Shown here piece by piece: positions 10,039 to 33,790 of a DNA stretch of 64,000 nt. Origin of the DNA: Trissonchulus latispiculum (lineage: Eukaryota; Nematoda; Enoplea; Enoplida; Ironidae); the NCBI GenBank assembly GCA_030248195.1, contig JASAND010015750.1, positions 62,001-126,000 of the forward strand. Direction: 5' to 3'. A program made the position numbers and the translations under genes. How positions within the stretch are numbered: the first letter of the stretch is position 1; each line of letters begins with the position of its first letter. Below the pieces are notes generated by a model. That model made no database searches. It was not told where the DNA came from and saw nothing but the letters and a program-made list of their open reading frames with translations.

Positions 10039-10042
10039 AAAA

Positions 10043-13266: not shown

Positions 13267-13799
13267 TGAAAACCTAGGGGACACTTATTGCAAAGTTTAT
13301 ATTGCAGTTTAAAAACTAAAGGTGCAGTTAAATGGATATGCTTAGGTAGCTAGCTACAGTATTGGTGGCAAAGAGAGCTCTGTGCGTTTTCTCTTTGAAA
13401 AACCGCTTTAACCATGACCCCGAGTACCCAACTAAATATATTGTAATAATAATTAATAACTTTATTAATACTAATGATTATGATAATAATAATAATAATA
13501 CAGAAAATTTGAAAGGTTATAAATGTTTTAGGCAAGATTTTTCTTTCACCAAACAAGATAAAATCGTCATGATTTGGCTCATTTTCGAATTGCGATACGA
13601 TGCTGCTACAGGTGCATCAGGAAAAGGACTTTTAGTTTTCGCAAGAATTAGTTTGTTCCAAATTTTAAATGCATATCTATTTTAGATTTCTTTCAGAAAC
13701 GCAAGCCTAAACACTTTACAATAAATTCTTGAACTAAGTCAAACTGAAGTAGAGATCACAGTGAAATTGATTGCATCGATCCCCGTTTTGGAGGACTTC
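13267..13799. other. Intronic/non-coding stretch
   Basis: Probably intron of the receptor-like gene. It contains an AAT/ATA-rich simple-sequence tract at 13435-13505 and no gene. Confidence 0.4.
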
Positions 13800-14771
13800 A
13801 ATGCGTACTGCTGACGCAATCCGCAGTTCAAACTTTAAAATCATTGGTCAGACTTTTTAAAACTGAAATACGAGTAAAGTTTGTAAATCAGACTGACTAT
13901 GGGTACGTTCGTAATTATCTTAAAATTTGGAAGCTGCAGTAGGTAAACTAAGATCTGATACCTAACTGTTTAGTGAAACCTTTCTAGTGATTTGACGAAA
14001 ATAATTGCCACCAAGCCACTAAACTTGTAATAGACAACTGAGAAAATACCTCCAAAGAGTATGAAAGCATTTGCAAGTCAAAAGCTGTCTGTCGAGCTCA
14101 CTGTTCCCAACACACCAGAACAGAATGAAACTGCCAAAAGGATGAACCGATCATTGGTCGAATCAGTGAGAAGTATGACGAATCCTGCACACGTCAGCAA
14201 GTATTTTGGTACGAAGCTATATCTACAGCTCAGTACTTCAAGAATCGATCACCTATTGCAGCAGTGGCCAGGAACATACCATTTAAAGACGTTAATGGTA
14301 CAAATCCCAGTGTGTGGAATGTCCAGGTTTTTGCTTGCACAACTTATGCTCATATCTCCAAAGGTCACCGGCGGAAGTTTGACTCTAAAGCCAAAGTCTG
14401 CAAGTTGGTTGGTTACATTAGAAGCAAAGAATACCGGCTGTATGATACAGAGCGCAAGAAAGTGTTCACTCGTAGGGTTGTCACCTTTGACGAAGCTGTT
14501 CCTAGTCTTCAAACTAAAAGAGATGACGCGGTTGACTATCACAGCCAGCCCGATAGCTAACAGAACCCAAAATTCGGACATCAGGACCAGCAAGAAGAAG
14601 TAGAACCCCATCGTCTAGAAGTTGTGGACAACGATGCCGCTGATGCCCCGGCGGTTTGGAGATCCAACAGATCCAGGAGACCAGTTTCAGAATGGAAACA
14701 AGATAAGCCAGAGTGGAAGGTTTGTGACAGACTGAAAGAAAAATCTGCTCCATTCGACTGCCTGAGTGCTA
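13800..14771 (+). pseudogene. Ty1/copia pol, integrase part
   Basis: The plus strand shows copia integrase pieces: FKTEIRVKFVNQTDYG (degraded DNGGE site), then VPNTPEQNETAKRMNRSLVE with the catalytic Glu region mutated, the WNVQVFACTTYAHI box and DSKAKVCKLVGY. Several frame changes occur. The sequence breaks at ..LSAKI at 14771, where the helicase-bearing gypsy element begins, and continues at 31372. The 5' part with gag, protease and LTR is missing. Confidence 0.88.
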
Positions 14772-14775
14772 AAAT

Positions 14776-14960
14776 AGTAACTGACGCAAGAAACTGGTTT
14801 AATGACAGAACAAGACTAAGCAGTTAGACAATTAATAACAGTCTTTTATAAGCGAAAAGTAATTTGCATATTTGATAAACGAAAACAAGAACTAGTTAGA
14901 ACCGGTTCAAATGCACGAAGCCAGAGTTAGCACACAACAGGAACAACAGTTAGCGTTACA
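14776..14960 (-). repeat. 3' LTR of the helicase element
   Basis: 185 bp, minus-strand TGTAACGCTAACTG to GTTACT. It contains TATAAAA on minus (14844-14850), the likely polymerase II promoter box. It differs from the 5' LTR only by an extra ACA. Confidence 0.95.
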
Positions 14961-14970
14961 CTTCCCCCCT
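14961..14970 (-). promoter_or_regulatory. Polypurine tract
   Basis: Minus-strand AGGGGGGAAG directly before the TG of the 3' LTR, the plus-strand primer of reverse transcription. Confidence 0.85.
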
Positions 14971-15040: not shown

Positions 15041-16231
15041 TCAGTGGGTGCCAATTTCCACCTCATCGATCTGGTCAAAATCAGGCAGGTGGGATCGCTT
15101 GTTGATATATGGCTTGTTCTTGTAGGTGTCGTATGATGTTTGACGGTAGGACGTTGGGCTGAGGACGTAAGGATAATAAGCCAGGGTAGGGACAACGGTC
15201 TCCCAGATCTTCCAGAGTTCAAGAAGGCCACGATGATTTAAATGGAAATCATCGGACTCCTGTAGTGCATCACCAATAGAACCGATCGCATTCGGCTGGA
15301 AAGGCAAATAATCGACAGGATCGATAACCTTCACCACTGGACTGGTGATCCTGGCTGCCTTGGCCTTAATGAATGCGTTGAAGGCGGCCACCCGATGGAC
15401 CCGATTGGTAGGATAGGGCAAAGACAGCAGAAACACCTGATGAGGGTGGGAACGGATGGCTTACTCCATCCGCTTCCACTGTAGGTGCCACCTAGATGTT
15501 TCCTTCCGAGCGACATTTACGCCACACAGGAACACTACAATCATGTAGTCAGATAGGTGGAGCCTTCGGGCCTTGCATTTGGACAAGATTGTGGATGGGA
15601 TTCCGCCACTGACCGCCACCACTGATCCGCCCCCGATCTTTTTGACGAACTTCCCTTGGCTATCCGCCAGGAGCAACACCGATCCCCAAGGCCGCTGTGT
15701 GGGTATAATTAAGCGATTGAACATGGCATCCGCCGTAAACTGAATATTGAGCTGGCCTTCCTTCCATTCCTGTCGGATAGTGTCCAGCAGGGCTCCATAC
15801 CGATTTTTACCAGGGTACTCTTCGGGGCTGAGGGTGGTGGCCGCAGCTAGCCTGAGACCACACCCCCAATTGAAATCTGATTGACCCAAGCTGACAAAGT
15901 TGGACCCATCATTGCTGTTCCGAAAAGCATCCACAAGTTTGGGCTCCCCCATCATTCGACAGACCAAAAGGGACTTGTAGATGTCAGGCGCCATTCGATA
16001 CCATACCTCCGACGGCTCGAATCCAAGCTCGGCTACCCGAGCTTGTAGGTTTCCCGGGTCCTGGTGTGCGAATTCCCACAGGAGCCGATCCGCCCATTGA
16101 TGGCATCCGTGCTGTCGTAGACAACTGTACCAAAACGAGTGTTCCAAAGAGGTAAATCGGCAGCCCGCCAATTCAAAACGTCGTTGATGGTGTCGATGAA
16201 GAATATGGTCCTTGCCGACATACACAGGCAT
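15041..16231 (-). CDS. NADAR (YbiA-like) plus SGNH-hydrolase-like protein in env position
   Basis: The first in-frame ATG is at 16231, 21 bases past the integrase stop; the stop lies inside TGATTGTTTCAG, a possible splice acceptor, so a spliced mRNA is likely. Residues about 1-155 match NADAR: FELAGCRFTSLEHSF (conserved Glu), a Trp/Met/Lys helix region, and SDFNWGCGL followed by GKNRYGALL. NADAR proteins cleave N-glycosidic bonds; some remove ADP-ribose from guanine. From about residue 178 there is an SGNH-like fold: block I LLLADSQGKF, block II SGGIP, block III FLCGVN, block V DDFHLN. SGNH enzymes are esterases or lipases. A single TAA at 15463-15461 interrupts the SGNH part in frame. The length without it is 396 residues. 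Confidence 0.85.
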
Positions 16232-16251
16232 ATTCGGATGACCTGAAACAA

Positions 16252-16531
16252 TCACAGAAAAAGTTTTACATCATCGTTTTTGGCTCTTCGCGGTAACCGT
16301 TTCTTTAGCTGTTTGTTCGATTCCATTGAAGGCGGATCCTCGCGACTAAAGTACGGTCTAAGACGATTAAAATGTACTGTTTGCTCGCCTTTTTCGCCCT
16401 TAACAGTAACGTTAGGAAGACTTAAGGACGTGATTTCATATGGTCCACTCCAGTAAAAAGTTAGTTTTGGAGATCGTCCAACAGCGGTTACAGGGGTGTG
16501 GACTAAAACCAACTGTCCTTTCTCATAGTTA
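16252..16531 (-). pseudogene. Integrase C-terminus of the helicase element
   Basis: The frame reads LVLVHTPVTAVGRSPKL, FYWSGPYEI and VHFNRLRPY, the beta-barrel tail of Ty3/gypsy integrase, and stops at 16252. Its upstream half is at 22654 and beyond. The foldback element separates the two; deleting it with one TTA copy would restore the frame. Confidence 0.9.
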
Positions 16532-16539
16532 TGGGTCTG

Positions 16540-17030
16540 TCACGCTAAACTCCACCGCGAGTGCAGAAGGTTTCCGGAAAGTTGACAATTTGTCTAGAAA
16601 TATTTCGAGACAAGTTAACAACTTTCGAGACATTTTGTCGTGAAACATTTTGACTTTCGAGACATTTACAAAATATTTCTAGAAACATTACGCAATTGTC
16701 TAGAAAGTTTTATTAGCATTTCGAGACTTTTGGAAATATTTCGAGACTTTTGAAAATATTTCTAGACTTTTGAAAATATTTCGAGACTTTTGAAAATATT
16801 TCTGGACTTTTGAAAATATTTCAAGTAAATGGCAACAAAGACGTCTCGAAAGATTGAAATGTCTGGAAAAATTGTCTAGAAACATGAAAATGTCTCGAAA
16901 TGTGAAAAATGTCTAGAAAGATTGTCTAGAAACATGAAAATGTCTCGAAATATGAACAATGTCAAGAAACATGAAATGTCTCGAAATGTGAAAAATGTCT
17001 AGAAACACTGTCTAGAAACATGAAAATGTC
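16540..17030. repeat. Subterminal TTTCKAGAC array, left outer
   Basis: Short words TTTCGAGAC and TTTCTAGAC and their inverses (GTCTCGAAA, GTCTAGAAA) recur about every 15-25 bp, switching strand near 16830. Similar arrays occupy 17240-17460, 21590-21900 and 22190-22600. They may be transposase binding sites. Confidence 0.75.
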
Positions 17031-18559
17031 TAATTTGAACGTGAGAACTTCGCAAAACAAACTTTTCTGTTTGTGCGTATACTGTATACGTATACGTATA
17101 CATACGTATACCCAACAAATTCTTCGTGTTTTCTTTGGTAAATGGGGGTAATGTAAAGGGGGCGCTAAATGTTAAAAATAAGGTAAAATAACTGCCGATA
17201 TTTCGCGTATACTGCTATACTATGGGTGTGTCAGCTTTAACTCTACGGTGAGCGCAGAAGGTTTCCAGAAAGTTCAGAAAAAACGACTCGAAGGTTGTCA
17301 GCAAATGTCTCGAAAGCTGAAAATTGAAAATCAAAATTGTCTCAAAAAATTTCAAACTTTCTAGAAATGTTTGAAAACTGTCTCGAAACATGAGGGCAAA
17401 TTTTGCAGTTTCTAGAAAATTTTCCAAATTTCTAGAAACATTTCAATTTTTAGTTTCAGTTATTTACAGAATGAGAAAATTGCGAAAAATAGCTTTTTTG
17501 AGCCGAAAATTGAGTTTTTGTGTCCAATTTTTGAATCTATTATAAGGAGCCCAGAGACGAGATGGACGCCAAAGAAATACTTAACAGACGTAGAGTGCAG
17601 CTATCTATACGTCATTTTTGTATCTTTTGTCAATCGTTCAGAATAAGAGAAAGAGACTGTAGCTCCTGTTTTTCATGGTCCAAAAACATCCGATTTTCTA
17701 AAATTGTGACATTGAAAAAATTCACCAATAGTCCATCGTTCAATTGCATTGCACCAAAGTAACTCGGTGCACTCTACAATATGTCCTCAACTTGTGTACA
17801 AAGTTGTAGCGCTGTTTCTTTCATACAGCGAAAAATTTCTTGAACATTAACTTTTTAGCCTAACTTTTTCAGTTTCCTACGTTTAGCACATGTTGAGGTC
17901 ACCTTTAAAGGGCTCTACAGAACAATCGAAGCAATATTACGCAAAACGAACTTTTCTACTTTTGCGGACCCATTGGGAGTACAAAACATGTAAAAATGAG
18001 CTAAATCGGAGATGGTAGAAAAGTCGGCCAAAAATCGATCCCCCTCCTGAAAAAGGGGGGGGGGCTACGAACGGGCTCGACGTCGTCAGAGACAGCTACT
18101 TTTTCGCCCAATGTTTGGTAACATATCAAAGCCATCAAGTTTGGGGTGGGCAACAATATATACCATATACACCGCTTTTGGCAGGACGCCAAAGTACAAA
18201 TTTTAATGCGAAAAATGGGTTTTTCAAAAAGCTGTTTGTGGCTCCGGTCGGTGGATTAACGATTTGACTAATTCTGGTACTTTTTGCCACGAATATTTAC
18301 TGTTACTAAGTACTGAATATTAAATGTGTTCTGGCTTGATCGTCGCTTCATTCTTCATAAATAACAGGCAAAGTTTCAAATTTTTGCAAAAAGTCGCAAG
18401 GTGACCGTGCGCCATTTTTGATCTGATAAAATTGACAGCCCTAGCCTACCCCTGCTTTTTACCAGTTATTAGGTTCTTACAGGAGCAAGCTGTGACTAAG
18501 TTTCGAGGGTGTTGGTTTTCCAGTTAGTGTACTAGCTCATTTTTAGGTCTGAAATAGAC

Positions 18560-20630
18560 TACATTTTTAGGTCTGAAAGGAATCTCTCTGGAACAAGACT
18601 TTATGTTCCCCTGGACTCCACACATTTTAAAAATTTAATTTTATCAGTTTCCAAAGTTTCGAATCCCCATCAGCCTCTAATGTGCCCATTGGCTGGTAAA
18701 GCGTAAGAGATCTAACATAATAGGGTCCTCACGCAACTTTAATACGTTTCAAGCTTTGCCATTAAATTGTTGAAGAAGGAGACGTTTTGTTAAATTTGTC
18801 CGAAATACATCTTACTAATGCAAAAACGTCACTGCAGGAAATGAGATACGCTTTTCTAAAGAGTAATTCATTAATATGAGATGTTCCCCTTCTATTTGCA
18901 TTGAATTGTCTTGTGTTGTCATGGCAGCAATTTTGATTAACCTTTGGCCTCAGTCCAGAATGTCTCCACTCAAGTTCTCAGACGAAGGTTTATATTACAT
19001 ATAAATACCTCTGCGTAGGCTGTCCTAATACTTTGTGCCACTTACTCATTGCTTGCTTGCGACAGCAGACACATTTAACAGCTGTCAAATTTTCCAGTCT
19101 TGTCGTCGTCAGTGCGAAGGTCATAATGTCAGATAAATGGGACAAGAGACAAAACAGACTAACGGAATGAAAGTAATGAAGGAAGTTTGAAATGAAAAAT
19201 TTTCTATTATATGTCAATAAAACTGAAACGAAACTAGGGACGTTTTTTTAAAGTTTTTAACTCTTGACAAAAAGGCCTTACACAGTTTGCATGTTTTTGA
19301 TTGGAGCTGATTTTAATTTTACTCAGAATATATCAAGTAAACAATATGCCTCGCAATAGTCAAATCATCAGTACTAATTTCACTGTAAAAAATTACCTAG
19401 CTGTTATCTATTCTTTCATGATCACTGTTGTCATTCAAGAAAAACAGATAGTTATCAGATATATTTTTAGTTTTGACATTAGTACTCCAACAGAAATTGC
19501 TGACCTGCACTCATTAAATGTTTAATATAGAATAGTTAATATAGTTACCAATTTTGATAGTTTTTGCCGTTTAATGATAGCAGTGGCAATGAGTAACATG
19601 AGCAAAAGTTCCCTTAATGGTTAGAATAGCTGTGAAACGGCACTCAAAATAATATCTGCACTCGATTTTAACTGATAGGGGGAGGGGGGCAGAGATGGAT
19701 GCGGGTTTAAAATTTCATTCATTTCCGGGGCCAGAGCCGGGCTGCTTTCCCAAATATGAATCCAAACACGGATTCCATACAACCTTTGTCTCGCCCTGAC
19801 CGCCCTGTACAAGGAACGGTGCCTAACTTTTGCAAAGATACTCATCAAATATAGTGCTTCGTTCAGTAGTGGCATCTGGGATGGGATCCCATGAGATGGG
19901 ATTAAAAACACATCCCATTTGAGATCAGTGGGATTTCTTGGGATCATTCTGCCCCATAATGCCTTCAAACAGCGTTTCCAAATTTCGAAAAAGTGCAATA
20001 TTGCGTGTAAAATAATCCTTAGATCTATGTATAGTTTTCCGTGAGATACAATCAAAGTGCGAAAAATTGGGTGTTGTAGGTCTATACGGGTGGAGGCTAA
20101 CTAACTAACTAGCTAATGAGCTGTGGTTTACCAAATGAACCCAACTTTGTTCCAATTAATACTCCAAGTATCGGTCTTAACTTATGTAAAATGACGTGAT
20201 TTCGTTAATCCCTGCGTTCGCAGTGCTAGATTACATTATCGAAATTGTCGCTGAAATTTGGTGCCATTTCGAAGATGTGAGCCAATTACTCCAAATTACT
20301 GTGGCAGAATCGGCTGAAACTTTGCGCATGACAGGCCAGTGAGTGTACCAAGATATGCAGAGAGCTAGGTCACTTAGCCTCGTTCCAATGTTTAGAAATG
20401 CTAGATTGATTTCTCGAAGTATGGATGGCTATCGCTCCAAAAAGCTCTAAGACAGTTGTAGTGCATACTGAACGAAGGAAGCGTCATATCGAAAAACGGA
20501 TTTCATATTCGGATTCAGCTTGTCAAATAACCCCTATATTATAGGGCCTATAACCACCTTTTCGGCGAAATCGGAGACAAAATTTTTTTGATCCCATTTT
20601 TACTGCGCTTATCTAGCTTTTCAGGCCTAA
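18560..20630. other. Central region of the foldback element
   Basis: About 2 kb between the inverted arms. Its open frames are short and resemble no transposase; no gene is seen. Confidence 0.5.
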
Positions 20631-22189
20631 AAATAAGGGTTATTTCTTAACGAAAAGTTTCCTAGCTCACTAACCAGAAAGCCTAAGTCCTCAAATCCTA
20701 CAGACAGTTTGCCCCTATTAGAGCCTAATATTCGCTAAAAAGCTGGGGTAGGCTAGGGGCTGTCGCTTTTATTAGATCGAAAACGGCGCACGGTCACATC
20801 GCAACTTTTCGCAAAATTTCAAAATTTGAGCTGTTATAGCTGAAGAAGGAAGCAACGCTCGAAAGCCGGAATACTTTTAATATTTAGCACTAGTAACAGA
20901 TAACATTTATGGCTGAAAGTTTCAGAATTGGTCAAACCGTTAATCCGCCAGAGCTGAAAAAACCTTTTTGAAAAATCCCACTTTCCCACCAAAATTTGTA
21001 CTTTGGCGTCTTGCCAAAAACGGTGTATATGAGATATATAGTTGCCCACCCTAAACATTTTTACTTTTATATGTTGGCTAATGTTGGGGGGAAAAGTAGC
21101 TCTCTCCGACGATGTCGTGCCAACCCCTTCGTAGCCTCCCCCCTTAAATAGAATTTAAATTTAGTCTGGACGGCATCGGGGCTGAACCACCGAGACTGGC
21201 ATTGGGACCCAAGCCCAGGTGCATCCCTAGCAAACTTCAGCAATTCGGGTTAATTTCAATATTTCAGCAACACATCCCGATACGCTATTAGGTAAAGTAG
21301 TTTGGAAGCTTTAAATAACAGTAAATTTTTAATTATTGACATTTTTTAATAAATTTAACAGCATAGTTATCGTATAGCATTTCTCTTGATTTTAATCGAA
21401 CAATTCCGATGACGTTCTCTTGATGATCCCGTCTTTCTGTACAAATCCCAATAGCCGCTCTATTTCCAAGATATCTGGTATAAGGAAACTAGTTAACCAC
21501 CACCCCTTTTTCCCCCGACAAACCCTTAACAGAGTTGACTAAAAGCTACTGGTGACTTTCTCTATTTCCGGAGTGAAATATTTCGAGACATTATATTTTT
21601 CGAGTCTTTTTATGTTGCGATGACGAATTGTGTACAAACGTTTTCATTTTACGAGACATTTTTTAAAATTATAGAAACATTTTTATATGTCTCGAAATAT
21701 TTGAATTTGTCTCGAAATAATTTCATTTGTCTTGAAATATTTCCATTTGTCTCGAAATATTTTAGGAAGTCTCGTAACACAATTCTGCAAAATCTAGACA
21801 AATTCGCGCTATGTATCAAAAGTTTTTTGAAAAGTCTCGAAAGTTGAAAGTCTTTCGAGACAGAAAGTGTCGAAAGTTAGAAAATATTTCGAGACGCCAA
21901 CTTTCCCGAAACCGGCACTCGCTGTGGAGTTAAAGCAGGCACACCCATAAATTAAAAAGTGCTCAAAAGATTAAGTTTTAGGTGTACCATGTATCAAGTA
22001 AGAAAATAGATGGGGTCGATTGGGAAATTCACCCTCCCCCTCCACTAAAAAAACCCAGCACAATACATGAGCTTAATCACAACCGGTGAAGGTGTCTATA
22101 TATACATGGATAAACAGTAAGCATAAAGCATCAGGCATCTAAACTGGCAAAAGATCCGAAACTTAGCAAAGATTTGAAAGTTACCAGCT

Positions 22190-22600
22190 GTCTCGAAAGT
22201 TAGTAAATGTCTATAAAGTTAATAACTTGAAACTTCAACGAAGTCTAGAAACTTCTCAACATTTGTCTCGAAAGTTGTTACCGATGTCTCGAAAGTTTGC
22301 AATTGTCTCGAAATATTTCTAGACTTTTGACAAACTTCCCGGAAAGTTGAAAATGTTTCAAGACATATTTCTATATTTCTAGAAAGTTGACATTTTGTCT
22401 GGAAATATTACTTAACTTTCTAGAAAGTTTGAAAATATTTCGAGAAAAATTTCAATATTTCTAGAAAGTTGAATTTTTGTCTCGAAATATTACATAACTT
22501 TCTAGAAAGTTTGAGAATATTTCTAGACAAATTTTTGGCAAATGTTCCAACTTTCGAGACATATTTCTAGACAAATGCCAAACTTTCAAGTCTTTTTTCC
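22190..22600. repeat. Subterminal TTTCKAGAC array, right outer
   Basis: Mirror copy of the array at 16540-17030, with the same words in inverted order. Confidence 0.75.
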
Positions 22601-22653
22601 CTACTTTCCGGAAACCTTCTGCACTCGTGGTGGAGTTTAACGTGACAGACCCA

Positions 22654-23999
22654 TTAAAGGGCATGTAGATACGCTTATCGTACTGCTTTTTCTGTGCTTC
22701 CTGAGCCTTTGCGATTTCCGCTTTCGCTGCTTGGCGTGCTTTATAGGCACGATATACCACCATCTGTTTATAGTTATCAGTATCAATAATTTTCTCTCGA
22801 GGTGGCTGGAGTACTAAATTTATAGGAAGACTCGGTGTGCGCCCGAACGTTAGCAAGAATGGTGTTTCTTTAGTACTAGCGTGCTTTGCCGTATTATAGG
22901 CAAAGACAACTGCTGGTATGTATTCATCCCAATCTGTATGAGACTCATTCACATACATCTTAACCATTCTTTCGAATGTCTTATTCCACCTCTCTACCAA
23001 TCCCTGACTGTGCGGATGGTAAGAGGAAGACGCAGTCTTGTCGGTGCCGCAGTATTTTAACAATTGTTTAATCAATTGTGACTCAAGATTTGAACCACGG
23101 TCACTGCGAATTACTGATGGAGCTCCATGTCGGTATATGATGCATTGCATCATAGACCGAGCTATTGTAACAGCTTTCGCATCTGGCAGAGGTTCGGCTT
23201 CTACATACTTGGTTAAACTGTCAGAAAAAACAACAACATATTTGTTGCCGTGAATGGTTGTTGGGAAGGGTCCCATAAGGTCAACAACAATTTGTTCAAA
23301 TGGCCCGCTTGGTTCTATTGGCTTTAATGGTGCTCGCCCATGACAAACAGGATCCTTCCCGGTTTGGCATAAGTGGCAAGAGCGGCAGTACTGCCACACT
23401 CTCTGCCTCATATTTGGCCAATAAAAACAAGTTCTTGCTCGATGCAAAGTTTTCTCAAAACCCAGGTGGCCCCCGTGTGGTGAATCGTGTAATTCATACA
23501 TAATATCCACCACCATTTCATCAGGGATAACCACTTTATGGCCTGAGCCTGAGTCAACTTGGCAGAGCACTCCATTTTCCATGGTAAATGCATCAGCTGC
23601 CTTAACAGATTCACTGTTTAGGTCAGTCAAATCTCCCTCCTCAAGAAACTTGATGAGGGATCCCCACCGAGAATTCAGCTGTCTAGATCTAAGGGGAATT
23701 GGTTCCAACTTTTTGTTGTCGGCTGCCCCACAGAATCCTACTTGCACCGCCTTGTCATTAATAGGTTCTACTTCTGGAATCCTGGACAGATAGTCTGCAT
23801 TTCCATTTGCGGAACCTTTCTTGTACTCCGTTAAAAAGGTGTACTCTTGGAGGGACGTATACCACCTAGCTGCTTTATCAGTAGTATATCGGCCATCCAT
23901 GATGTACTTCAAGGGCTTATGATCCGTCAGCAAGGTAAAATGGTGGCCATAAAGGTAGGGTCTAAAGTGCTTAACTGTGCAGATAATGCCTAAGGCCTC
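22654..23999 (-). pseudogene. RNase H and integrase core of the helicase element
   Basis: Starting after a 1-base loss near 24000, the frame reads the RNase H end (TDHKPLKYIMDGRY, GNADYLSR), then the integrase zinc domain (HDSPHGGHLGFEKTLH with CRSCHLCQTGK) and the catalytic core: first Asp in VVDLMGPFP, second in IRSDRGSNLES, Glu in GLVERWNKT. The frame ends at 22654 where the foldback element begins; the following codons up to 22461 are foldback sequence. The integrase would insert element DNA into the genome. Confidence 0.93.
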
Positions 24000-24712
24000 C
24001 TCTCCGTTGTGGAATAACGTCTTTCAGCAGAAGTGAGGGAACGGCTGAAATACGCAATTGGATGTTCACTGCCATTGACCTCTTGCGACAGGACTCCTCC
24101 AATACCCACCTTACTGGCATCCGTTTGGACAATGAATCGCCTAGCAAAGTTTGGGTAGGCCAATATTGGATCTTTCAGCAGTCTCTGCTTCAGACCGTTG
24201 AATGCTTCTTGGCAATCGCTAGTCCAGGTAAAGCGACTTCCCTTTTTCAGCAAGCTAGTCGATGGGGCCGCTATGCAAGAATAATTTCGGATAAATTTTC
24301 GATAATATCCGGCCATCCCTAAAAAATGCTGCAATTGCTTCACAGTCTTTGGGACCGGGCAAGTGCTTATGGATTCTATCAGCTTCGGATTAGTACGGAT
24401 TCCATGAGGTGTAATTATATGCCCCAAGAATTCCACCTGATTCTTTGCAAAATGGCATTTCGGCAGTTTGAGTTTCAGGTTATGATCACACAATCGACCA
24501 AATACCTGCTCCAAATCCCCTGAATGTTCTTCGAATGTTTCGGACACAACTAAAATATCGTCTAGGTACACAAAACAGTTTTTCCACTGCATGCCTGACA
24601 GAACCATGTTCATAAGCCTTTGGAATGTCGAAGGAGCATTACACAATCCAAACGGCATAACCTTGAATTGGTATAGACCATCAGGTGTGATAAAAGCAGT
24701 TTTTGCTTTATG
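24000..24712 (-). pseudogene. RT palm/thumb and RNase H start of the helicase element
   Basis: The frame contains MPFGLCNAPSTFQRLM, the catalytic YLDD in CFVYLDDILVV, the thumb (FLGHIITPHGIRTNPK) and the RNase H Asp (VQTDASKVGIGGVLSQE). It ends in a frameshift at YSTTER, where one base is missing relative to the following RNase H frame. The upstream RT half is separated by the G-rich insert. Confidence 0.93.
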
Positions 24713-25131
24713 CGTCTATCGAAAGATTTTGAGTAAACATTTTTATGGAGATTCGGTGGAACAAAAATGTGGGGGGGAAAACGCAAATTTTTTTTCCGAA
24801 AATGAGCTGACTTGGTGGGGGTTTTGGTGTGGGGGTTTTGTGTTTAAAGTTTTCCGGGGGAAAGACTGGGGTATATGGGGAAAATTGTAATCGAACTAAA
24901 ATATAAAAATACCTTGTTATAAACAACAAAATATTTAGGGGGGTGGGTGGGGGGGGGGGGGGGGTGGTTATGTGTTTTCTTGGAGGGGATAGGGGCGCGG
25001 GGGCGGGGCGGGGGCCGGGCGGGGGGTCGGGGGGGGGGGGGGGGAAGGGGGGGGTCGGCGGGGCGGACCGCAGGGGTTATTTTTTTTGGGTTTATTTTGT
25101 GGGTGGGGGCGGGGGGGGCGGGGGGTTTGTG
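24713..25131. other. G-rich insert in RT, possible assembly artefact
   Basis: A 419-bp stretch interrupts RT between the PLAESD motif and the next conserved block. TTAT occurs at both junctions. The right two thirds consist of very long G runs on plus with little else, and no inverted ends are present. It could be a real G-run insertion or noisy consensus sequence. Confidence 0.6.
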
Positions 25132-25646
25132 TTATCAGACTCTGCCAGAGGTATCTGCCAGTAGCCTGACCTCAGAGTCAAACTTGTAAAAAACTTTTTC
25201 TTACTCAACTGATCTAGGATGTCATCTATCCTTGGCAGAGGAAAGGTGTCCTTTACAGTAACATCATTCAGTTTCCTGTAATCTACGCAAAACCGTAAAC
25301 TGCCGTCCTTCTTTTTTACTAGGACGACTGGAAAAGCCAAGGGGCTCGTGGAAGGTTCAATGACGTTGTCTTGAAGCATGTTTCGAACATGCTCTCCTAA
25401 GACTGCCTTTTGGGCAAAGGGGAGCCGCCGCATCGGTAGCTTAATCGGTTTGGCATTCGCCGTGTCTATGCCATGTTCTACCGTTTTAGTTTGAGTGATG
25501 TCTCTATTCGATTCTGCAAATAGAGGCTTGAATCGTTTTAACAATTGAATTAACTCAGTTTGTTGCTTACCACTAAGCGTGGAGTTACCCATTATGATAT
25601 TTTGGCTAAATGTAATCTGTGGGTTTGTCATCTTCACCAACAGCAT
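25132..25646 (-). pseudogene. RT N-terminal half of the helicase element
   Basis: The frame overlaps the end of the gag-helicase-protease frame by 41 bases and lies one base forward of it, so pol needs a +1 shift or another device. It shows VEHGIDTANAKPIKLPMRRL, a strand VVLVKKKDGSLRFCVDYRKL and the palm block around FFTSLTLRSGYWQIPLAESD. In the palm the usual catalytic Asp of the SLDL block reads Thr (SLTL), which may be a mutation or a base error. Confidence 0.92.
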
Positions 25647-28600
25647 TCACTTCGCCTGCTTCCTCGAGCCCTTCAGCTTCCTCTGCGAGCCCGACCGTCG
25701 TACCTTGATAGAGTTTTAATGGCATCCAGTCTGTATTTAACATCCGGATCTTTACCTGACCATTCCGCAGCTTATGATAGGATCGTTCCAATGTCACCGA
25801 TGTTTTCCCAATCGAATTCGCCGGTTCGATTATAATATTTGCTTTTCTAGGAGAAAACTCCTGCCCAACTCGACAGCGGACGAAAGCTCCGGAGCGAGGG
25901 GGTATTACAACATCATCCATGACATTGACAGAAAGCATTTTGTCCTCGGCCAACCCCGTCTTGCAATCCAAGCCAAGGTGGCCGAGCACTAAGTTGGGAA
26001 TTTCCCACTTCTCAAGGACATCAATGCCAATTATAGCATTGTACCTGCAGTCATCCGGGACTAGTCTCATTCGATGTACCGTAGCATTCTTACCAACTTC
26101 AATTTCTGCTTCTATTGTCCCCAGTGTCTGTAGTCGCTCACCATATACGCCAGCAATGTCGGCACTTGGGGCTACTGGTTCCAGATTGACGACTGACTTT
26201 TTGACCAAAGACATATTCGCCCCAGTATCCAGAAGCACATCGCTGACTTCCTTTCCGTTGATCCTTGCCGTGACCACCAATTTAGAGTTGGATGAAGCCA
26301 CTGTTTCTGGATGGCTTCGCTTTCTACCCGAAGGTAGAGAGGGGCTCCATTTTGGCCACGGATTTTCGCTCCGTATACACTTCAGTTTGATGAAGTAATT
26401 TCGGAGTTTGCGAAAAATGTTCGCATCACCGCTTAGGCACAACTTATGGAAGTCTGCAATTACGATTAGCGCACGACGAGCTCTTGTGAGCAGGACGTTG
26501 AGCCTACGATAATCTTTGAGAAAACCCTGTTCGCCATCAGAGTTTGCTCTCGTGAGACTTACTATTATAAAGTCCTTTTCTTGGCCCTGATAAGCGTCAA
26601 CCGTATTGACCGTGACACTGGCGAAACCAGTATCTGCCAGTTTTTCCTTAATCAGTCTCTTCTGAGCCCTATACGGTGTGATCACGCCTATCGCTGATTT
26701 TTCAATTCCTCCTATCTGGATCAAGGCCTTGGCAGATGCAACCACTACCTTTGCTTCGGTTTCATTGAAAATGCTGGTGCTACCCGTTTCCTTGTGGCTT
26801 TCTGAATCAATATCCAAAGCCATCACTGGTTTTCCAGTCGGCAAATTTGGGTAGCTTGGATGTTGAGCGCAATGTTCCAATTTTCCACCGTAGAATTCCT
26901 TATTACTAAAATCGGCTATTTCTGGTGGCATCCGGTATTGTTGCTTCAGCATCAGTGGCTCAACGCCATTTTTAGCTACGTGTTCCAACAGTGAGATAGC
27001 CAATCCCTTGTCTTGAGCTCCCCGACTCAACACAGTAGGACGCAGCTGCTTGTGATCTCCGACTAAAACGCATTGCGGAGACCTGGAATTGGTCATAGGG
27101 ATTAAACCCTCGGGCACAGTTAGTTGCCCCGTTTCGTCGATGAGCAGGGTTTGGAAATTCCAATTTTCTCCACTGAGCAACCTCCGACCTGCTCCTGCAG
27201 CCGTACAGCAAATCACTTTGCTCTTTTGGATGACTTCTCTCGTTTTGTTGTTTCTCATTTTCCAATATTTCTTCAAATCACTTTCTTTAATGGAATTTTC
27301 CAAGAAAGCGTGATGGAGGTTTCGAAATTCTTCATCTGCTTCCGCTGCTTTGTATTCGGCGCTAAGGTGCTTCACCGACTGGTCAATCCATGGAACAAAG
27401 GCGGTAGGAAAAAGGCGGACCACCTGCTCCTCAGGCAATCCAGCCTCTTTCGCTGCCTGATAGATCCGCTTTGCTAGGTGTGTTGTCGCTACATTAGATG
27501 GAGCACACGCCATAATTTTCTGATTGACTGACATACTCGTCAACCATTTAGCAATTATTACTGCTGCAGCTGTCGTCGTTTTACCAGTTCCAGGTGGTCC
27601 TTGAATGAGCGTTAACGCTCGGTTGAGGGAGGTCTCAACTGCTGTTGTTTGAGACTTATTCAATCTTTTGACGGCCAGTTCTGGACACTCTTGCTGTTCT
27701 TCCAGTTCCAAATCAGGATCTTCCCATTCTCTTGTATTCAGCACACACTGTAGATATGCTGGCTTCCACGCCTGTGGGTTAGTTAGGCAGTTGAGACTAC
27801 GATTTTGGGAGCCTGATGAGCCTGAATCTGGATCTTTCTCCGCCAGAACCCTGCAAAGGGTCAGCACGCTTTGTTTATCCTGAGCGTCAGCTGACATGTC
27901 CAGAATTTCCAACTTGACCCACTGAGGATCTTTTCTATCTCTTTCCACCAACATACCCCACACCTGAGGTCCATATCGTTTTGTTGGTGAAATTAGCAAG
28001 TAGTCTCCTACCTCTGCTTCTCCATACTGCAAGGTAGCAAACTTTCGAGCCTTTTTAACATCCCATTTTACTGGGACCTCGGCCTGCGACTTCTTCGCTC
28101 CCGGTACCATGCCATCAAAGTACTCGATTTCCAGCAGTTTCTGATAATTAGTGACGAATTCTTCGACTGAAACTTTAGGAGCTTTTTCCTCTTCTTTTTC
28201 CTTTTTTGCTCCTCCACTGCGAGACATTATCTGATCTGTCCTCTTTTTGATTCCCGGATGTTGCTCTGGATCGGGATACAGCTTCTGGAGCAACAATTTA
28301 GCAGCTTCCTGTGAATCTGGAATCGATGAAGCGTCGAAATGCCGTTCCAGGAATCCGTAGTAGCAGTCGAAGTCGACACGATTGAGCACTTCCATTAGGA
28401 TCTTCACGTACAATCCATATTTGGCTTCCTTCTGATTTGCTCCGGCACTTACCATTGACTTTCCAAAAAGATCTATGTTAGCTAAAAAGAACTGAGGATG
28501 CCAGGATCTCCGTTCCATAAGCTTCATTGTTATCGCCGTTGCCAAGGATCCAGCACCACGAATATTTTCCTTCTGCCAGATCTGTTTAAACGATTTTAGC

Positions 28601-29239
28601 TGCACGCAGTCATTAACTAAGGCAGCTGGATTGGGTGGGCTTCTGCTAGACGGCGTCTCGCCCAAAGGACAACACAATGCTACTTCTTCCCCGCTGTCGT
28701 CGTCCCAACTGCTGTACTTCTGCCTGGACCTCGGGTTGTATCCGCCTTTGGACTTGTTTGATTGCTTTTCCTGGTCACCTATGCGGCTGTCGTTTCTCCG
28801 CCGGAACCCTTTTTTATGCCAGCACCATTCCGTATCGTGGTTATCCATTCGGCATATCGTGCACCACCTATCTCTTCCTGGATTCTTGTTGGTCTGCCTT
28901 TTGTCCCGTTGGTTTCTGTAGTCCTGACCACTCGCCTGTCCGCGAAAGCCACGACTACTCTTACCTTGCCGGAACATCTTATCCAGCTTTTGCTCTAACC
29001 GGTCCATCCGTTCGGTTACAGGATCGGACCTATCATCCCCCAGTGTATTCATGGCATCCGCGGTACTCGAATCATCAGCTTTCTTGGGAGATCTGCGCAT
29101 GGAAGTCTTTATATCTGGCAATGTGGTGACAACCCTAGGGCTTTCCCCTAAAGCTGACACCCCTACTTCTCTAGACTTCATTGCCTCCCTAAACAAAAGT
29201 TTTTCATGTTGAGCCCGTTCGGCTTGCTCCACTGCAGGG
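25606..29239 (-). CDS. Gag nucleocapsid, UPF1-like SF1 helicase and aspartic protease polyprotein
   Basis: One uninterrupted frame. Counting from an ATG at 29313 (inside an inserted repeat, so not the true start): CCHC knuckle 151-164; an uncharacterised helical region 235-365; a UPF1/SMUBP2-like domain from ~380; Walker A GPPGTGKTT 572-580; Walker B LLIDETGQ 723-730; motif III VGDHKQLRP 751-759; QQYRMPPEI 791-799; motif V VDAYQGQEKD 905-914; motif VI RRLNVLLTRARRA 936-948; retropepsin LLDTGANMS 1027-1035. All SF1 motifs look intact. UPF1-family enzymes unwind RNA or DNA with ATP; here the enzyme would be made with gag and could be packed in particles. The helicase covers about 28176-26404. 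The gag start is at 30963, before the insert. Confidence 0.93.
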
Positions 29240-30834
29240 TTTTTTTGCGTCCAGAAGTGCGTCTGGACGCAAAGTTTCTTATCTAGACGCAATGAAATTT
29301 TAACGGGACGCAAGCTAGACGCAACATTATTTCGGGAGAAAATTCAGTTTTGTAAGAGTGAAAACTTTTAATGTTTCCATTAACAATTTTTCCTTATTTT
29401 CCAAAAATTTTCTCGGTTTCTGGGGGGCTCCGCCCCCCAGACCCCCTGGTGTTTTCCACTATGGCATCGAATGCCCATGTACTGTATTATATTATAACAA
29501 CACAACAAGTACTCATGTAGTCATGTGTCAGTACTTGTTGAGTTGTTATATATTCACCCGTATCCATACGTAATAGATCAAACCCCAGCATTAATAAAAT
29601 TTGTAGCCGCAGCCGAATATCCAAATTTTGGGATCATTCAATGTTTCTAGGAATAGTTTTCTTAAAAACATTTTCGCAAGAATGCACAAACGGTAATGTC
29701 AAAAAATGCAAGCTACATTGTTCTAAACTTTTCAACTGCAAAAAGCTTATCAATAAGCATTTTGCGTCTTGCGAAGAATTCAACCATAATCTATCGTAAT
29801 CCTCGTTAAACTTACAAAGGCTTAGCTGTTTATCCCTTAAAAAACTGGTACACACTGTTTGTTTCTTGATATGATTTCATTCAATATTCAAGAATTTAAA
29901 GATTCAGTATACACAATTGCATTAGCAAAGTTTTTAAACTCAATTTTTTTATTTTAAAAATATTTTTTACCTCATGGATTAATCCCGAAATTAACAATAT
30001 TTGTAACGAAATTTGCAGAATATCCAATTAATTTGGTTGATTTAAAGCATATAATTCTTCTAAAAACGTTTTCCACAAAGCATACACAAATAGCAATTTG
30101 AAATATATATTGCATTGCAATACTACCATTTTTCTAAAATTTTCAACAATATGACAACAAGTTGTCTGTCTATGAAAAATTTACGATAAATTTAACTTTA
30201 ATCAATCGTAACCAACGTTAAGGCTTCACTGTGTTTGGTTTGAATAATACTGCACTAAGTAAGCATCGCATACATATTTTTTGTTTATTGATATATACTG
30301 ACTTTATTCAAAATTCAAAAATTTACAGATGCAATTTACACAAGAAATGCATTAGCGCTAGATGCTTTGGTTAAATTTAACAGATGCCAAATTAATCTTT
30401 TTAAACGTTTCCATTGAACGAATAAATTCGTAATTTGCAAAAAATTCTCCAGCTTCTGGGGGGCTCCGCCCCCCAGACCCCCCGTGCTTATTTCCAATAA
30501 CCTTTTCAGGGATCAGTATAAGTTTTCAAAACAGGATTTATGTTTCAATACATGCTACCTTTCTTCTCAATGATATTAATTTACGTAATAACTGTTTCAT
30601 TAATTTTTTATACAATAAACATCGGAATGTACCACTAGTATCAAAAATTAGCCACCATATGCGCTTAAGATGTAATAGATGCCAAATTAATCTTTTTAAA
30701 CATTTCCATTTACTGTAATTGGAAAAAATTTCTTCAACTTCTGGGGGGCTCCGCCCCCCAGACCTCCCAGAATAATAAAGTTTATTATCATTACATTGTT
30801 CGGGGCCAGGTTCGAATCCCGTGGCTACCGTTTT
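29240..30834. mobile_element. Repeat inserted in gag, with GCGTCC start and GC-rich hairpins
   Basis: The left edge (AGGGTTTTTTTGCGTCCAG, with a GCGTCCAGA/TCTGGACGC hairpin) matches 62940 onwards closely for about 200 bp, so this is a dispersed repeat. Inside, about 500-bp homologous units recur, and the hairpin CTGGGGGGCTCCGCCCCCCA occurs at about 29419, 30457 and 30741. The right part has GGTTCGAATCC, a tRNA B-box-like word, near 30812. Exact borders and target repeat are not clear. It separates the gag start from the rest of gag. Confidence 0.7.
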
Positions 30835-30963
30835 CACTTTAAGCAAGTCTTTATTCTCGCTCCGCAGAGCTTCATTTTCCTTTTCTACTGTCTGCAACCT
30901 TCTCTCTAGCTGTCTCAATGAACGCTGCAGTTCGTCCATTTTAGCTTCGTCCTCTTGGGACAT
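30835..30963 (-). CDS. Gag N-terminus of the helicase element
   Basis: The ATG at 30963 opens MSQEDEAKMDELQRSLRQLE, a coiled coil continuing to about SENKDLLK at 30835, where the inserted repeat begins. The leader from the primer site is about 215 bases. The coiled coil is the probable gag assembly segment; the frame after the insert resumes with VEQAERAQHEKLLF. Codons beyond 30835 are insert sequence. Confidence 0.75.
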
Positions 30964-31176
30964 TGATTATTGCTTTTTTGTTCAAACGAACTTCCAATCT
31001 AGTCAGTAATTTGACTAAACCAGAAAAATAAAAGACAGCAACAGTTACTTACCAGTTGCATGCAGGTATAGCAGGACAGAATTACTTTTTTACCCAAAAT
31101 GGGTTTGCTTGTTTTAGTCTGAAAGCGGCCTTCCGCAACTCCCAAACTAAAGCAAACAACACTGAATAGTCTAAAC

Positions 31177-31190
31177 GGCTGGAACCTCCA
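31177..31190 (-). promoter_or_regulatory. Primer binding site (tRNA-Gln-like)
   Basis: Minus-strand TGGAGGTTCCAGCC begins with the last base of the 5' LTR. Its first 11 bases complement the common metazoan tRNA-Gln 3' end with CCA. Confidence 0.7.
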
Positions 31191-31371
31191 GTAACTGACG
31201 CAAGAAACTGGTTTAATGACAGAACAAGACTAAGCAGTTAGACAATTAATAACAGTCTTTTATAAGCGAAAAGTAATTTGCATATTTGATAAACGAAAAC
31301 AAGAACTAGTTAGAACCGGTTCAAATGCACGAAGCCAGAGTTAGCACACAACAGGAACAGTTAGCGTTACA
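31190..31371 (-). repeat. 5' LTR of the helicase element
   Basis: 182 bp. TATAAAA on minus at 31258-31264 is the likely promoter. No base substitution separates it from the 3' LTR. Confidence 0.95.
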
Positions 31372-33790
31372 AAATTGAGGAACCTCTTACAATTACAGAA
31401 ACTCTAAGCAGCGAACATGTCGAGAAATGGAAGGCTGCTTCACCGAGCGAAATTGATTCCCTAAAGGAGAACCAAACATGGATCCTGGTCCCGTTGCAGA
31501 AGGACGTCTGCCAACAAAGTGCAAGTGGATCTTTAAGGTGCTGGTATCCTTTTGTGCAGTGCTTTTGTCGTGACTTTTCGAAACGCCATAACTTTCGCAA
31601 TTTTGGGAGTTGGAAAGAGCTGTATACATCGTTTTAAAGCTTATAATCTGTACATTAACATGAGCTTAAGAAACTAGCATAACTGGCAAAAAATAGCAAA
31701 ACATTGCCGACATGCTGACATCTGACATACTGAATATAGACCAAAAATTTTTGAACATCGATTTCTCAAAACTGTAGAATCGGCCAAAATTTCTTCTTGT
31801 GCCATGATATGAAGAACATGTGGGCCGAGGGACATTTTTTTGGATTTGGCTCAGCAAGTCTCAATACTCCAGAAAATCCGGCAAATGCGCGATGACACGA
31901 AATTTCGCAACTTTCTATTCAGTTTTCTCACAACTGGAGCTGTTTTAGCTCAAACCAAGAAAAATGTCCCTCCGCAATAGGGCGAATTTTCATTCAGCCA
32001 AAAATCACGCGAATCCATTGGGTAGCTTTTGAGAAATCAATGTTCAAAACAAAATAATCGCAATTTTGCCAAAATGGTTTTTCGGCGAATTCTCCAGCTT
32101 AAAGCAACGAACTCCAGCGAATAGGTATTGATAAAATGCGCAATTGGACGGTGTATCGATTGAGTATAAATCATCCAAAATTGTCTGTAAGAGTTGGCAG
32201 TAATTTTGAAAAAACCGATTTCTTCAAAAATGGCCATTTTTTGACCCTAAAAGTAGTTTTTGGCTTGTACTGTCTTAACCACTAGAGGCAGCTCAAAAGT
32301 TGTAAAAGCAAAAATGTTCATTTTGGTGCCCTCTTTCCAGCCATAACAACCAATCCGGTGTAGCGATTATGTACTGAGAGAATAAGGGCGAAAACCAAAA
32401 CTTTCTTATCTTTGCACCTAAAAATCCGGGACTGGTCCTAGAATGATAAAGAGCACGAAAATAATGTATTTGGAAAGTTTCATCCACTTTCATGAAGAAT
32501 TGAAACTTGTAGGGTCGAATTTACACAAAGCGATACCAGCACCTTAAGGTAAAGGATAAACCAGATGATAAAGTTGAAAAATTCAAAGCACGTTTGGTAG
32601 CCAAAGGATATTCCCAAAGCTACGGAGTGGACTACGAAGAGTGGATTCGCCTAAGTGGTCTGTGCGAACATTACTGGCGATTGGTATTCAGGAAAGAAAG
32701 CACAACCACCAAATGGATGTAGCCGCTGCATTCTTGTATGGTACCTTGGACGACGATAGATCAGCCAGAAGGCTTTGCTGAAGAGAGATAAAAGATAACG
32801 ACTGTAAGCTACAGAAATGTCTCTGCGTTTTAAAGCTGGCCCCAAGACAATGGAATCTCACCGTGCATGATCACCTCTGCAATGTTTGTTTCTTCAAACG
32901 TGTGCCAGACGCCTGCATGTATGCCAAGAAAGTGGGAGATGACACCGCAATCATTGCACTGGACGTGGAAGATTTACTCATCTTCATACAAAATCAAGGC
33001 CTTCTATAAGAAACAAAAGACCTGCTCAGTGGAAGAATGAAGGACCTTGGAAAAGTCCATTTCTACTTGGGAATTGAAATCATTCATGAAATGGCTAAAG
33101 AAACCCTAAAGATGAGCCAACAAAGATATCTCCAGAAGCTGCTAGAAAGACATAAAATGTGCGACTGCAAGCCAGCCACAGTTCCGATGGAGTCAGGATT
33201 AAAGCTAAAGAAACAGGATCCCAATGCAGAAACTGTCACAGAAGCTAAAAGATTCAGTTTCAGTCAGACGTCGGTGCATTACTCTACGCTGCAGTGGGAG
33301 TAGTATGCCATTTCACTTCAAGTCCAGGAAAAAATTATTAGGTTGCATTGAAGCATATCCTTCGCTATGTCCGGGCAACTATGAACTTGGGCATTGTTTA
33401 CAAAAGGGATAGTGACCTGGGAATGACTTTAACCGGTTTTTGTGATTTCGATTTGGCCAGAGATTGGAAGGATCGAACGTCTACGACGGGATGTCTATTC
33501 AAGCTGGCGCGTGGTCCCATCAGCTGGCTCAGCAAAAAGAGTCAACTGTATCTCTGCCTTCAGCAGAAGCTGAGTATAGTCATAGTGCCCTCAGTGCCGC
33601 TACCAAAGAGATGGTATGGCTTCGCTGTCTTCTTAAAAACTAAGTTATCAGCAAATATTGCCTGCGGTAATATGTGAGGATAATTAGAGTTGCATTACCT
33701 TAGTTGGTGTCGCATGCTAGAACAAAACACATCGACATCAAGCACCAAACAAGGAGTTGGCTCTCACGTATTGTTCCACGTCAGATATGG
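31372..33790 (+). pseudogene. Ty1/copia pol, RT and RNase H part
   Basis: Continuation of the copia pol cut at 14771. It reads EEPLTITETLSSEHVEKWK and ILVPL, then, after the TTAA-flanked insert, KFKARLVAKGYSQSYGVDYE, a damaged palm region around 32700-33000, MKDLGKVHFYLGIEI, RYLQKLLERHKM, and RNase H (LKHILRYVRATMNLGIVY, STTGCLFKLARGPISWLSKK). At least four frame changes and stops occur. Its strand is opposite to the nested gypsy element. Confidence 0.9.
31537..32543. mobile_element. TTAA-flanked (piggyBac-type) non-autonomous element
   Basis: The ends GGTGCTGGTATC and GATACCAGCACC form an inverted repeat with 18 of 20 bases matching, flanked by TTAA on both sides (31533-31536, 32544-32547). 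Removing the 1007-bp insert with one TTAA joins the copia frame exactly. No transposase. A diverged relative starts at 38338. Confidence 0.92.

Follow-up and report, generated by a model that had tools for sequence, protein, structure and literature searches.

A UPF1-Type Helicase Within a Gag–Protease Frame

A 64,000-nucleotide stretch of the genome of the nematode Trissonchulus latispiculum (GenBank assembly GCA_030248195.1, contig JASAND010015750.1, positions 62,001 to 126,000), hereafter called the window, carries a Ty3/gypsy long terminal repeat (LTR) retrotransposon whose Gag frame includes a superfamily 1 (SF1) helicase of the UPF1 type. An initial annotation made from the sequence of the window described a single open frame running from a CCHC zinc knuckle through the SF1 helicase motifs to a DTGA protease. 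This description was borne out: the frame lies on the minus strand, every named motif is present, and the Pfam families AAA_11 (5.6e-42), AAA_12 (3.9e-55), and RVP (3.1e-05) match within it. The parts of this open reading frame (ORF1) are listed below in window coordinates.

25606..29343, minus strand: ORF1, C-terminal part of Gag, helicase, and protease; one stop-free frame of 1245 codons
28822..28863, minus strand: nucleocapsid CCHC zinc knuckle, ORF1 residues 161-174
28144..28626, minus strand: N-terminal extension of the helicase module; helical by low-confidence prediction, no known family
27694..28143, minus strand: domain 1B-like beta region between helices; from structure prediction only
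26389..27693, minus strand: UPF1-type SF1 helicase core with motifs I-VI; from Pfam, alignment, and motif patterns
25654..26298, minus strand: retroviral-type aspartic protease (LLDTGA); Pfam RVP, with DTGA at residue 1039

The CCHC knuckle and the DTGA motif are 864 residues apart in this element, whereas the corresponding gap in the window's second Gypsy element (about 3103-10145) is 365 nt. A foreign domain therefore lies in frame between the knuckle and the protease, as in the planarian element Burro (PMC6431247; publications are cited here from excerpts of their text). The initial annotation had held that Ty3/gypsy elements normally carry nothing at this position, a generalization to which Burro is a published exception and to which there are likely others in the same genome. 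The first ~36 residues of ORF1 (29235 upward) belong to a repeat with a second copy at 62937-63126, and thus the edge originally drawn at 29239 is close to the true edge of the element sequence.

Searches with the N-terminal extension gave no convincing match. Protein searches with the protease region and with residues 150-560 matched 0 of 1469 candidates (at E 0.001) and 0 of 3046 candidates, respectively, and IMG/VR scans with protein P0001 and with the integrase produced nothing useful. Third-position GC content is 0.45-0.47 in the helicase and 0.45-0.49 in the protease and reverse transcriptase, a likeness that fits long residence of the helicase in the element but proves nothing.

The Window Element Is a Bounded Insertion

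The window locus is a bounded Ty3/gypsy LTR retrotransposon that extends from 31371 to 14776 on the minus strand. Its termini are marked by the following features.

31190..31371, minus strand: 5' LTR, 182 nt, TGTAAC...GTTACT; from self-comparison and global alignment with the 3' LTR
14776..14960, minus strand: 3' LTR, 185 nt; from self-comparison
31372..31375, minus strand: target-site duplication ATTT, upstream copy, in flanking sequence
14772..14775, minus strand: target-site duplication ATTT, downstream copy, in flanking sequence
31176..31190, minus strand: primer-binding-site-like sequence TGGAGGTTCCAGCCG adjoining the 5' LTR; starts with TGG, whose T is the final LTR base
14961..14970, minus strand: polypurine tract AGGGGGGAAG ahead of the 3' LTR, from the sequence

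Membership in Ty3/gypsy is indicated by the LTRs, the short target duplication, and the polypurine tract, together with the domain order capsid (CA), nucleocapsid (NC), protease (PR), reverse transcriptase (RT), RNase H (RH), and integrase (IN), which was established across the window and other copies. Between the LTRs of the window element are found, in order, gag, helicase, protease, RT, RNase H, integrase, and a third ORF (ORF3). The two LTRs are identical at 182 of 182 aligned bases in a global alignment, with one 3-nt indel, which indicates that the insertion is young.

When the flanks are rejoined at the target duplication, they yield a continuous open frame that by eye resembles Copia Pol. 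The helicase element sits inserted in this Copia-like element, whose halves border it at 14034-14775 and about 31376-31500 and form one frame when joined. Because LTRs are present, ATTT occurs on both sides, and the flanks rejoin to an open frame, the window element represents a discrete insertion and the locus is no misjoin. The local misjoin that the initial annotation had raised as a way for its proposal to fail is thus contradicted by the bounded insertion and its rejoining flanks, and also by the many further copies.

The Helicase Arrangement Recurs Across the Genome

The genome to which the window belongs (733.8 Mb, 21,732 contigs) was searched with the 1245-residue protein, which gave 47 matches among the 37 candidates scored of 2239. 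A UPF1 search of the same genome listed 41 helicase matches, none of which was recognised as the host's own UPF1. Twenty loci from the protein query (8 of 20 rows have no stop inside the match) and nine further helicase loci from the UPF1 search constitute a set of 29 distinct loci. Seven duplicate loci (L031-L036 and L046) were dropped before trees, distances, and counts, and genome matches lacking a fetched locus stand outside the 29-locus counts. For every module, counts and trees took the top tblastn segment; in the tree input, stops were replaced by X.

A protease is located downstream on the same strand in 28 of the 29 helicase loci, L043 being the one that lacks it. Likewise, a capsid is located upstream on the same strand in 25 of 29 loci if the 41-residue remnant in the window is counted (it is missing in L014, L039, L040, and L043), and 25 of 29 carry both. 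No stop interrupts the helicase core in 25 of 29 loci. One copy, L037, encodes CA, helicase, PR, RT, RH, and IN in a single frame of 2392 residues within the fetched stretch, and another, L042, has the full order through the NADAR and SGNH regions of ORF3, with stops in the core and the integrase. The helicase arrangement is a diverse, recurring Ty3/gypsy family trait in this genome, and a single-copy oddity is ruled out by the many copies in several subfamilies. The proposal of the initial annotation would have fallen had the genome held no other copy with this arrangement; many such copies are present.

Two loci, L013 (C13847) and L018 (C7936), are derivatives in which sequence of CA, helicase, PR, and ORF3 persists but most or all of the region from RT to IN is missing. 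In L018, PR and the NADAR-SGNH region share one frame of 771 residues.

Relationship of the Helicase to UPF1

The nearest solved relatives of the element helicase by sequence are NAM7 (224 bits) and UPF1, followed by a SETX-type helicase (164), SEN1 (152), DNA2 (142), and SMUBP-2 (140). A structure model of the helicase module (pLDDT 62.5) has UPF1 (2xzl_A) as its best fold match, although this ranking leans to UPF1 because the model was built with UPF1 rows. The Viral_helicase1 family (PF01443) matches window ORF1 at 0.00069, which is below its curated cut-off, compared to 3.9e-55 for AAA_12. SMUBP2, Sen1, and viral SF1 helicases are ruled out as the best fit by sequence scores, Pfam, and fold ranking, such that the original description as UPF1/SMUBP2-like holds in its UPF1 half and is weaker in the other. 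Among the 120 protein matches listed, the named ones are mostly UPF1/NAM7; gag is absent from the three best, and no match among the 120 bears a retroelement name.

The helicase core is 35-39% identical to 25 UPF1s compared. We built a tree of 64 rows comprising the 29 element helicases, these 25 UPF1s, and ten distant helicases as root; the host UPF1 helicase exons were not among the rows. Distant helicases came from IMG/VR query A1, which gave eight SF1 helicase loci of which seven were used (L007 was left out), and from GTDB genomes, which gave two bacterial helicases. The element helicases form one clade (100/99), and a second clade (97/88) unites the UPF1s. Rooting on the outgroup, whose own branch is weakly supported (86/37), makes these two clades sisters. 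The stem of the element clade is long, at 0.93 changes per column. In approximately unbiased (AU) tests, a union with animal UPF1 was rejected (p 0.009), whereas a union with non-kinetoplastid UPF1 was not (p 0.25), and placement using a single element row made no decision between groupings (p 0.434).

These results lend no support to capture from an animal-type UPF1 such as the host's own, with the caveat that long branches weaken the placement. The initial proposal of host capture is borne out with respect to the presence of a UPF1-type helicase in frame, while this origin finds no support in the separate clade and the AU result. The host does carry UPF1: a CH-domain query of the genome found its CH-domain exons on three contigs, 63-78% identical to Lineus UPF1. 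In element ORFs, the CH (UPF2-binding, PF09416) domain gave no Pfam match in P0001 at E up to 1, and blastp against eight open ORFs reached a lowest E of 6.1, with helicase core matches in all eight.

Helicase distances track those of PR (Mantel r 0.98, n=26), CA (0.98, n=24), RTa (0.91, n=25), and RTb-RH (0.73, n=21); p is 0.0005 in each case, which is the floor of 2000 permutations, and near-copies raise the r values. Because the element helicases form one clade and their distances follow those of CA, PR, and RT, the simplest account is that the helicase was acquired once, long ago, and has since descended jointly with the element.

Conservation of the Helicase Core

Stop-free frames were used to compare nonsynonymous divergence (dN) in five between-subfamily pairs. 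For the helicase core, dN is 0.172, 0.298, 0.271, 0.273, and 0.311; for PR it is 0.303, 0.528, 0.458, 0.472, and 0.433; and for gag it is 0.604, 0.841, 0.618, 0.718, and 0.707. The core has the lowest dN among five ORF regions in 5 of 5 pairs, and synonymous sites are near saturation in these pairs (proportion of synonymous differences, pS, 0.66-0.92). Recent copies L020-L022, which differ by few changes, have dN/dS values of 0.17-0.25 over the whole ORF and 0.16-0.25 over the core.

Columns identical across five subfamilies number 202 of 435 in the core, 62 of 215 in PR, 37 of 150 in the 1B region, 30 of 161 in the N-terminal extension, and 24 of 188 in gag-NC. Furthermore, 76 of 101 columns that are invariant in UPF1 are kept in the elements, compared to 37 of 197 variable columns (Fisher p 1.6e-21). 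Motifs I-VI of the UPF1 type are present in the window and seven other open ORFs, except that the patterns missed one motif each in L038, L043, and L044.

These comparisons support the conclusion that the UPF1-type helicase between NC and PR is under purifying selection and, among the copies that were compared, is kept better than the protease of the element itself. The initial annotation had reached the idea of selection by another route, from the survival of every motif and of the long frame in one copy. Selection itself is upheld by the five between-subfamily pairs, but because the LTRs are nearly identical and the insertion is young, the intact frame of the window copy is not evidence for it and was rejected as proof.

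A Candidate Frameshift Site at the End of ORF1

ORF1 of the window ends at the following site.

25605..25611, minus strand: candidate +1 frameshift site ATT-TAG-C at the end of ORF1; from motif comparison across copies

The frame of RT relative to ORF1 is +1 in 16, 0 in nine, and +2 in one of the 26 copies in which both PR and RT were matched. The motif [A/G]TT-T(AG/GA)-[C/T] ends ORF1 in 14 of the 16 copies with a +1 frame (the window and copies among L012-L029), at 142 or 145 nt before the RT match, and these 14 represent nine lineages of the helicase tree. L027 and L030, the remaining two, are spaced differently and contain further frame breaks. We consider this [A/G]UU-stop site a likely candidate for a programmed +1 frameshift at a stop codon, and we presume a resemblance to the frameshift sites of bacterial prfB and antizyme. 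Since the helicase is encoded upstream of the likely frameshift, it would be made with Gag, and not only with Pol, in this first branch of the family. A second branch (L037-L041 and L044) has RT in the same frame as ORF1.

ORF3, and Cargo After the Nucleocapsid in Related Elements

The last gene of the window element is ORF3.

15041..16270, minus strand: ORF3, NADAR-like domain followed by SGNH-like region; from Pfam, with an in-frame TAA at 15461-15463

The NADAR-like match in the window (5.5e-06) aligns most of the profile, with 27.2 bits versus a cut-off of 35.1, and TIGR02464 matches at 9.2e-06, also below its cut-off. ORF3 is open in L047 and L048 (411 and 408 codons), for which Pfam NADAR scores are 26 and 21.7 bits. 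The SGNH match in the window piece (Pfam 0.008) is below cut-off, and the open ORF3 of L047 and L048 gave no Pfam match to SGNH at 0.01; by eye, ADS, GVN, and DxxH-like blocks can be read that resemble the catalytic Ser, Asn, and Asp-x-x-His blocks of SGNH/GDSL esterases. A genome search with ORF3, in which 143 of 714 candidates were scored, gave 145 matches, many of them open frames of about 400-430 residues, and one match is directly downstream of the integrase in the L037 element (C16919). A single-sequence structure prediction of the NADAR ORF has a pLDDT of 37. ORF3 would be a second accessory enzyme set, comprising a predicted ADP-ribose-type N-glycosidase and an esterase.

An integrase search of the genome scored 92 candidates and gave 97 matches. 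Contigs that carry the helicase have integrases 44-100% identical to the query; other contigs at 57-99% are missing from the helicase list, an absence that does not equal lack of the helicase. Many contigs at 37-45% integrase identity hold frames of about 2160-3180 residues. Three of these, without a helicase match, were sampled as 4-kb stretches, none of which reaches the protease. After the CCHC knuckle, within long open frames, L049 (C11562:13700-17700) encodes NADAR (7.9e-23) and a region that by eye is glycoprotein-like, and L050 (C8717:11600-15600) encodes a Monjiviricetes fusion glycoprotein (9.6e-11). Because the protease is beyond the 4-kb stretches, its position in L049 and L050 is judged from these long frames. 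The sampled stretch of L051 holds gag only.

Damage to the Window Copy and Neighboring Features

The remaining features of the window element are as follows.

30778..30963, minus strand: gag N-terminus (coiled coil), from the ATG to the interruption; matches L012
29236..30777, no strand: insertion replacing the capsid part of gag; from comparison with L012, repeat common to 62937-63126
25092..25646, minus strand: RT, first part; Pfam RVT_1, +1 frame relative to ORF1
23990..24715, minus strand: RT, second part, and start of RNase H; from Pfam
22654..24023, minus strand: end of RNase H, and integrase up to the nested transposon; from Pfam, edge from the sequence
16532..22653, no strand: nested terminal inverted repeat transposon in the integrase, 6.1 kb, TGGGTCTGTCACG..., TAA duplicated; from self-comparison and the sequence
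16279..16531, minus strand: C-terminal end of integrase (VHFNRLRPY), by reading; weak Pfam matches only (Integrase_p58_C 0.01)

The window copy is thus broken in several places: its capsid is replaced, RT is interrupted, the pol frame changes near 24000, a transposon occupies the integrase, and ORF3 contains a stop. Nearly all of the capsid, which other copies have, is gone, although 41 residues of the capsid query still match. An early guess that a short interspersed element cuts gag at ~30840 was ruled out, since L012 shows gag there; the break is near 30778. Within RT, positions 24716-25115 are a C-rich low-complexity stretch that may be a sequencing or assembly artefact.

Elsewhere in the window, the second Gypsy element (about 3103-10145) has terminal repeats of about 103 nt. 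The minus strand at 12209-13273 holds a fragment of a glutamate-receptor-like (ionotropic) gene whose Pfam score narrowly misses the cut-off, and a ~627-bp tandem unit occurs three times at 49156-51077, with most of the unit 96-99% alike.

Possible Role of the Helicase

We propose, with a probability of about 0.5, that this is a Ty3/gypsy family whose UPF1-type helicase resides in Gag, is under purifying selection, is predicted to be packaged with element RNA, and likely aids reverse transcription. In subfamilies with split frames, the location of the helicase upstream of the likely +1 frameshift would provide it at the dosage of Gag rather than Pol. The adjoining zinc knuckle could bring the helicase to the genomic RNA, after which the protease would either free it or leave it on NC. 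A helicase without a CH domain would be a motor lacking the link to mRNA decay, and once packaged it may aid reverse transcription by unwinding or clearing element RNA. There is a precedent in HIV-1, whose particles are entered by host UPF1 through NC. HIV-1 enters and reverse-transcribes less well when UPF1 is knocked down or its ATPase is mutated, and the ribonucleoprotein of UPF1 and HIV-1 excludes UPF2 (PMC5127034, in excerpt). By analogy, a helicase next to NC, with no CH domain, in the Gag frame, and with the best-kept core would fit an element that carries its own UPF1-like motor.

Several observations weigh against this proposal. Because loci were found through helicase or UPF1 similarity, the counts do not give the share of helicase-less relatives and are silent on such elements. 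Gag dosage does not follow in the second branch, because RT is in the same frame as ORF1 there. Use of the helicase may not be tied to RT in cis, since two derivatives without most or all of RT still keep it. The dN comparison covers 8 of the 29 loci, with some sequences recurring among its five pairs, while the youngest pair (window and L012) has 8 nonsynonymous versus 3 synonymous changes in five regions, and 0 versus 2 in the core, which are too few to weigh. Motif patterns missed one core motif in three of seven distant members (VI in L038, II in L043, and I in L044). Likewise, the region corresponding to UPF1 domain 1B has no sequence similarity to it in open element ORFs, and the helicase model, built with UPF1 rows, has only moderate confidence at pLDDT 62.5. 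Finally, published element helicases have been proposed to act instead as silencing suppressors or antiviral factors (PMC6338049, PMC5563155).

One alternative is counter-defence, wherein a CH-less UPF1 look-alike binds element RNA and keeps host UPF1 and nonsense-mediated decay (NMD), or similar surveillance, away from it; this is the first of the two roles suggested in the initial annotation, the other being help in unwinding element RNA. The UPF1-type core and undetected CH domain are compatible with this role, and the anatomy of the element suggests that an RNA with a stop before pol would resemble an NMD target. However, a passive decoy needs binding only, whereas the catalytic core is the best-kept part of the ORF. 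We regard counter-defence as unlikely. A second alternative is suppression of small-RNA silencing through unwinding of double-stranded RNA, a role that has been suggested for SF1 helicases of viral origin in insect LINE and Copia elements, with weak suppression in a plant assay (PMC6338049, PMC5563155, in excerpt). The helicase examined here is of another lineage, as the AAA_12 and Viral_helicase1 scores show, and is in Gag rather than Pol, which leaves this option improbable.

It also seems quite improbable that the helicase is just one of several cargoes in a tolerant NC–protease slot, with a benefit in spread or particle function besides reverse transcription. The NADAR and glycoprotein-like regions of L049, the fusion glycoprotein after the knuckle in L050, and the env region that Burro carries there (PMC6431247) are in keeping with such a slot. 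However, the helicase is unswapped and highly conserved in the helicase loci seen, and the sample of cargo is confined to three related elements, in stretches short of the protease, one holding gag only. A recent host UPF1 transduction, a misjoin, or a domesticated host gene might be considered if one looked only at the window, which holds one copy with many broken parts. This explanation is extremely unlikely. Recent transduction and misjoin are rejected because copies are numerous and spread over several subfamilies, because the flanks give an open Copia-like frame once joined, and because the core is only 35-39% identical to the UPF1s compared even though the host's CH-domain exons are 63-78% identical to Lineus UPF1.

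Comparison with Known Elements and Implications

The element helicases share with UPF1/NAM7 SF1B helicases all core motifs, the best sequence and fold matches, and a predicted 1B-like insertion. They differ by the undetected CH domain, their separate clade, and their embedding in a Gag polyprotein. Among retroelements, insect TRAS/Jockey LINEs and two Copia-type ORFs have also acquired SF1 helicases and kept the motifs (PMC5563155, PMC6338049). According to the excerpts, those helicases derive from virga-like RNA viruses and are located in LINE ORF1/ORF2 or beside Copia RNase H or integrase, whereas the family described here has a UPF1-type helicase in a Gypsy Gag frame and is a standing LTR family. 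The giant planarian Gypsy element Burro also has foreign domains, as well as an env-like region, that lie in frame between the CCHC knuckles of Gag and the protease, but its cargo is MATH/TRAF, SUMO, BCL-2, and env, and the excerpt names no UPF1-type helicase (PMC6431247).

Relatives of the ORF3 domains are also found in excerpted reports. LTR elements of bdelloid rotifers encode a GDSL/SGNH esterase as ORF3 after pol (PMC5408684), whereas the SGNH-like region of the helicase family follows a NADAR-like domain and has weak family scores. NADAR occurs at the Pol N-terminus of an Ectocarpus Gypsy element and in oyster Tx1 ORF1 (PMC12477816); in contrast, the NADAR-like domain of the helicase family comes after integrase, and NADAR of L049 comes after the NC knuckle. 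An orchid Ty3/Gypsy element likewise acquired an RNA-directed enzyme, albeit a different one, an N6-methyladenosine (m6A) demethylase domain (PMC9289625). Accessory domains in LTR elements are thus already known. We found no UPF1-type helicase in a Gag or Gypsy frame in the open-licence PMC literature, a scope that excludes subscription papers and Repbase.

More broadly, we tentatively suggest, as a possibility we hold short of an even chance, that these elements constitute a lineage with a particle-borne replicative helicase. Its UPF1-type motor would have been gained once, would be encoded ahead of a +1 frameshift at a stop codon and supplied at the dosage of Gag, and would have a NADAR-SGNH enzyme gene as its partner, while relatives would fill the same slot with NADAR or with fusion glycoproteins. 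The general view is that retroviruses and LTR retrotransposons rely on helicases of the host. If the suggestion is true, members of this clade carry for themselves a function that HIV-1 takes from host cells, and captured genes in general can dock in the NC–protease slot. With a helicase kept in Gag better than the protease, what a helicase does for reverse transcription becomes a question that can be tested directly. The family also draws attention to the interval between NC and protease, which may serve as a slot for captured genes, and provides a candidate signal for +1 frameshifting at a stop codon in retroelements.

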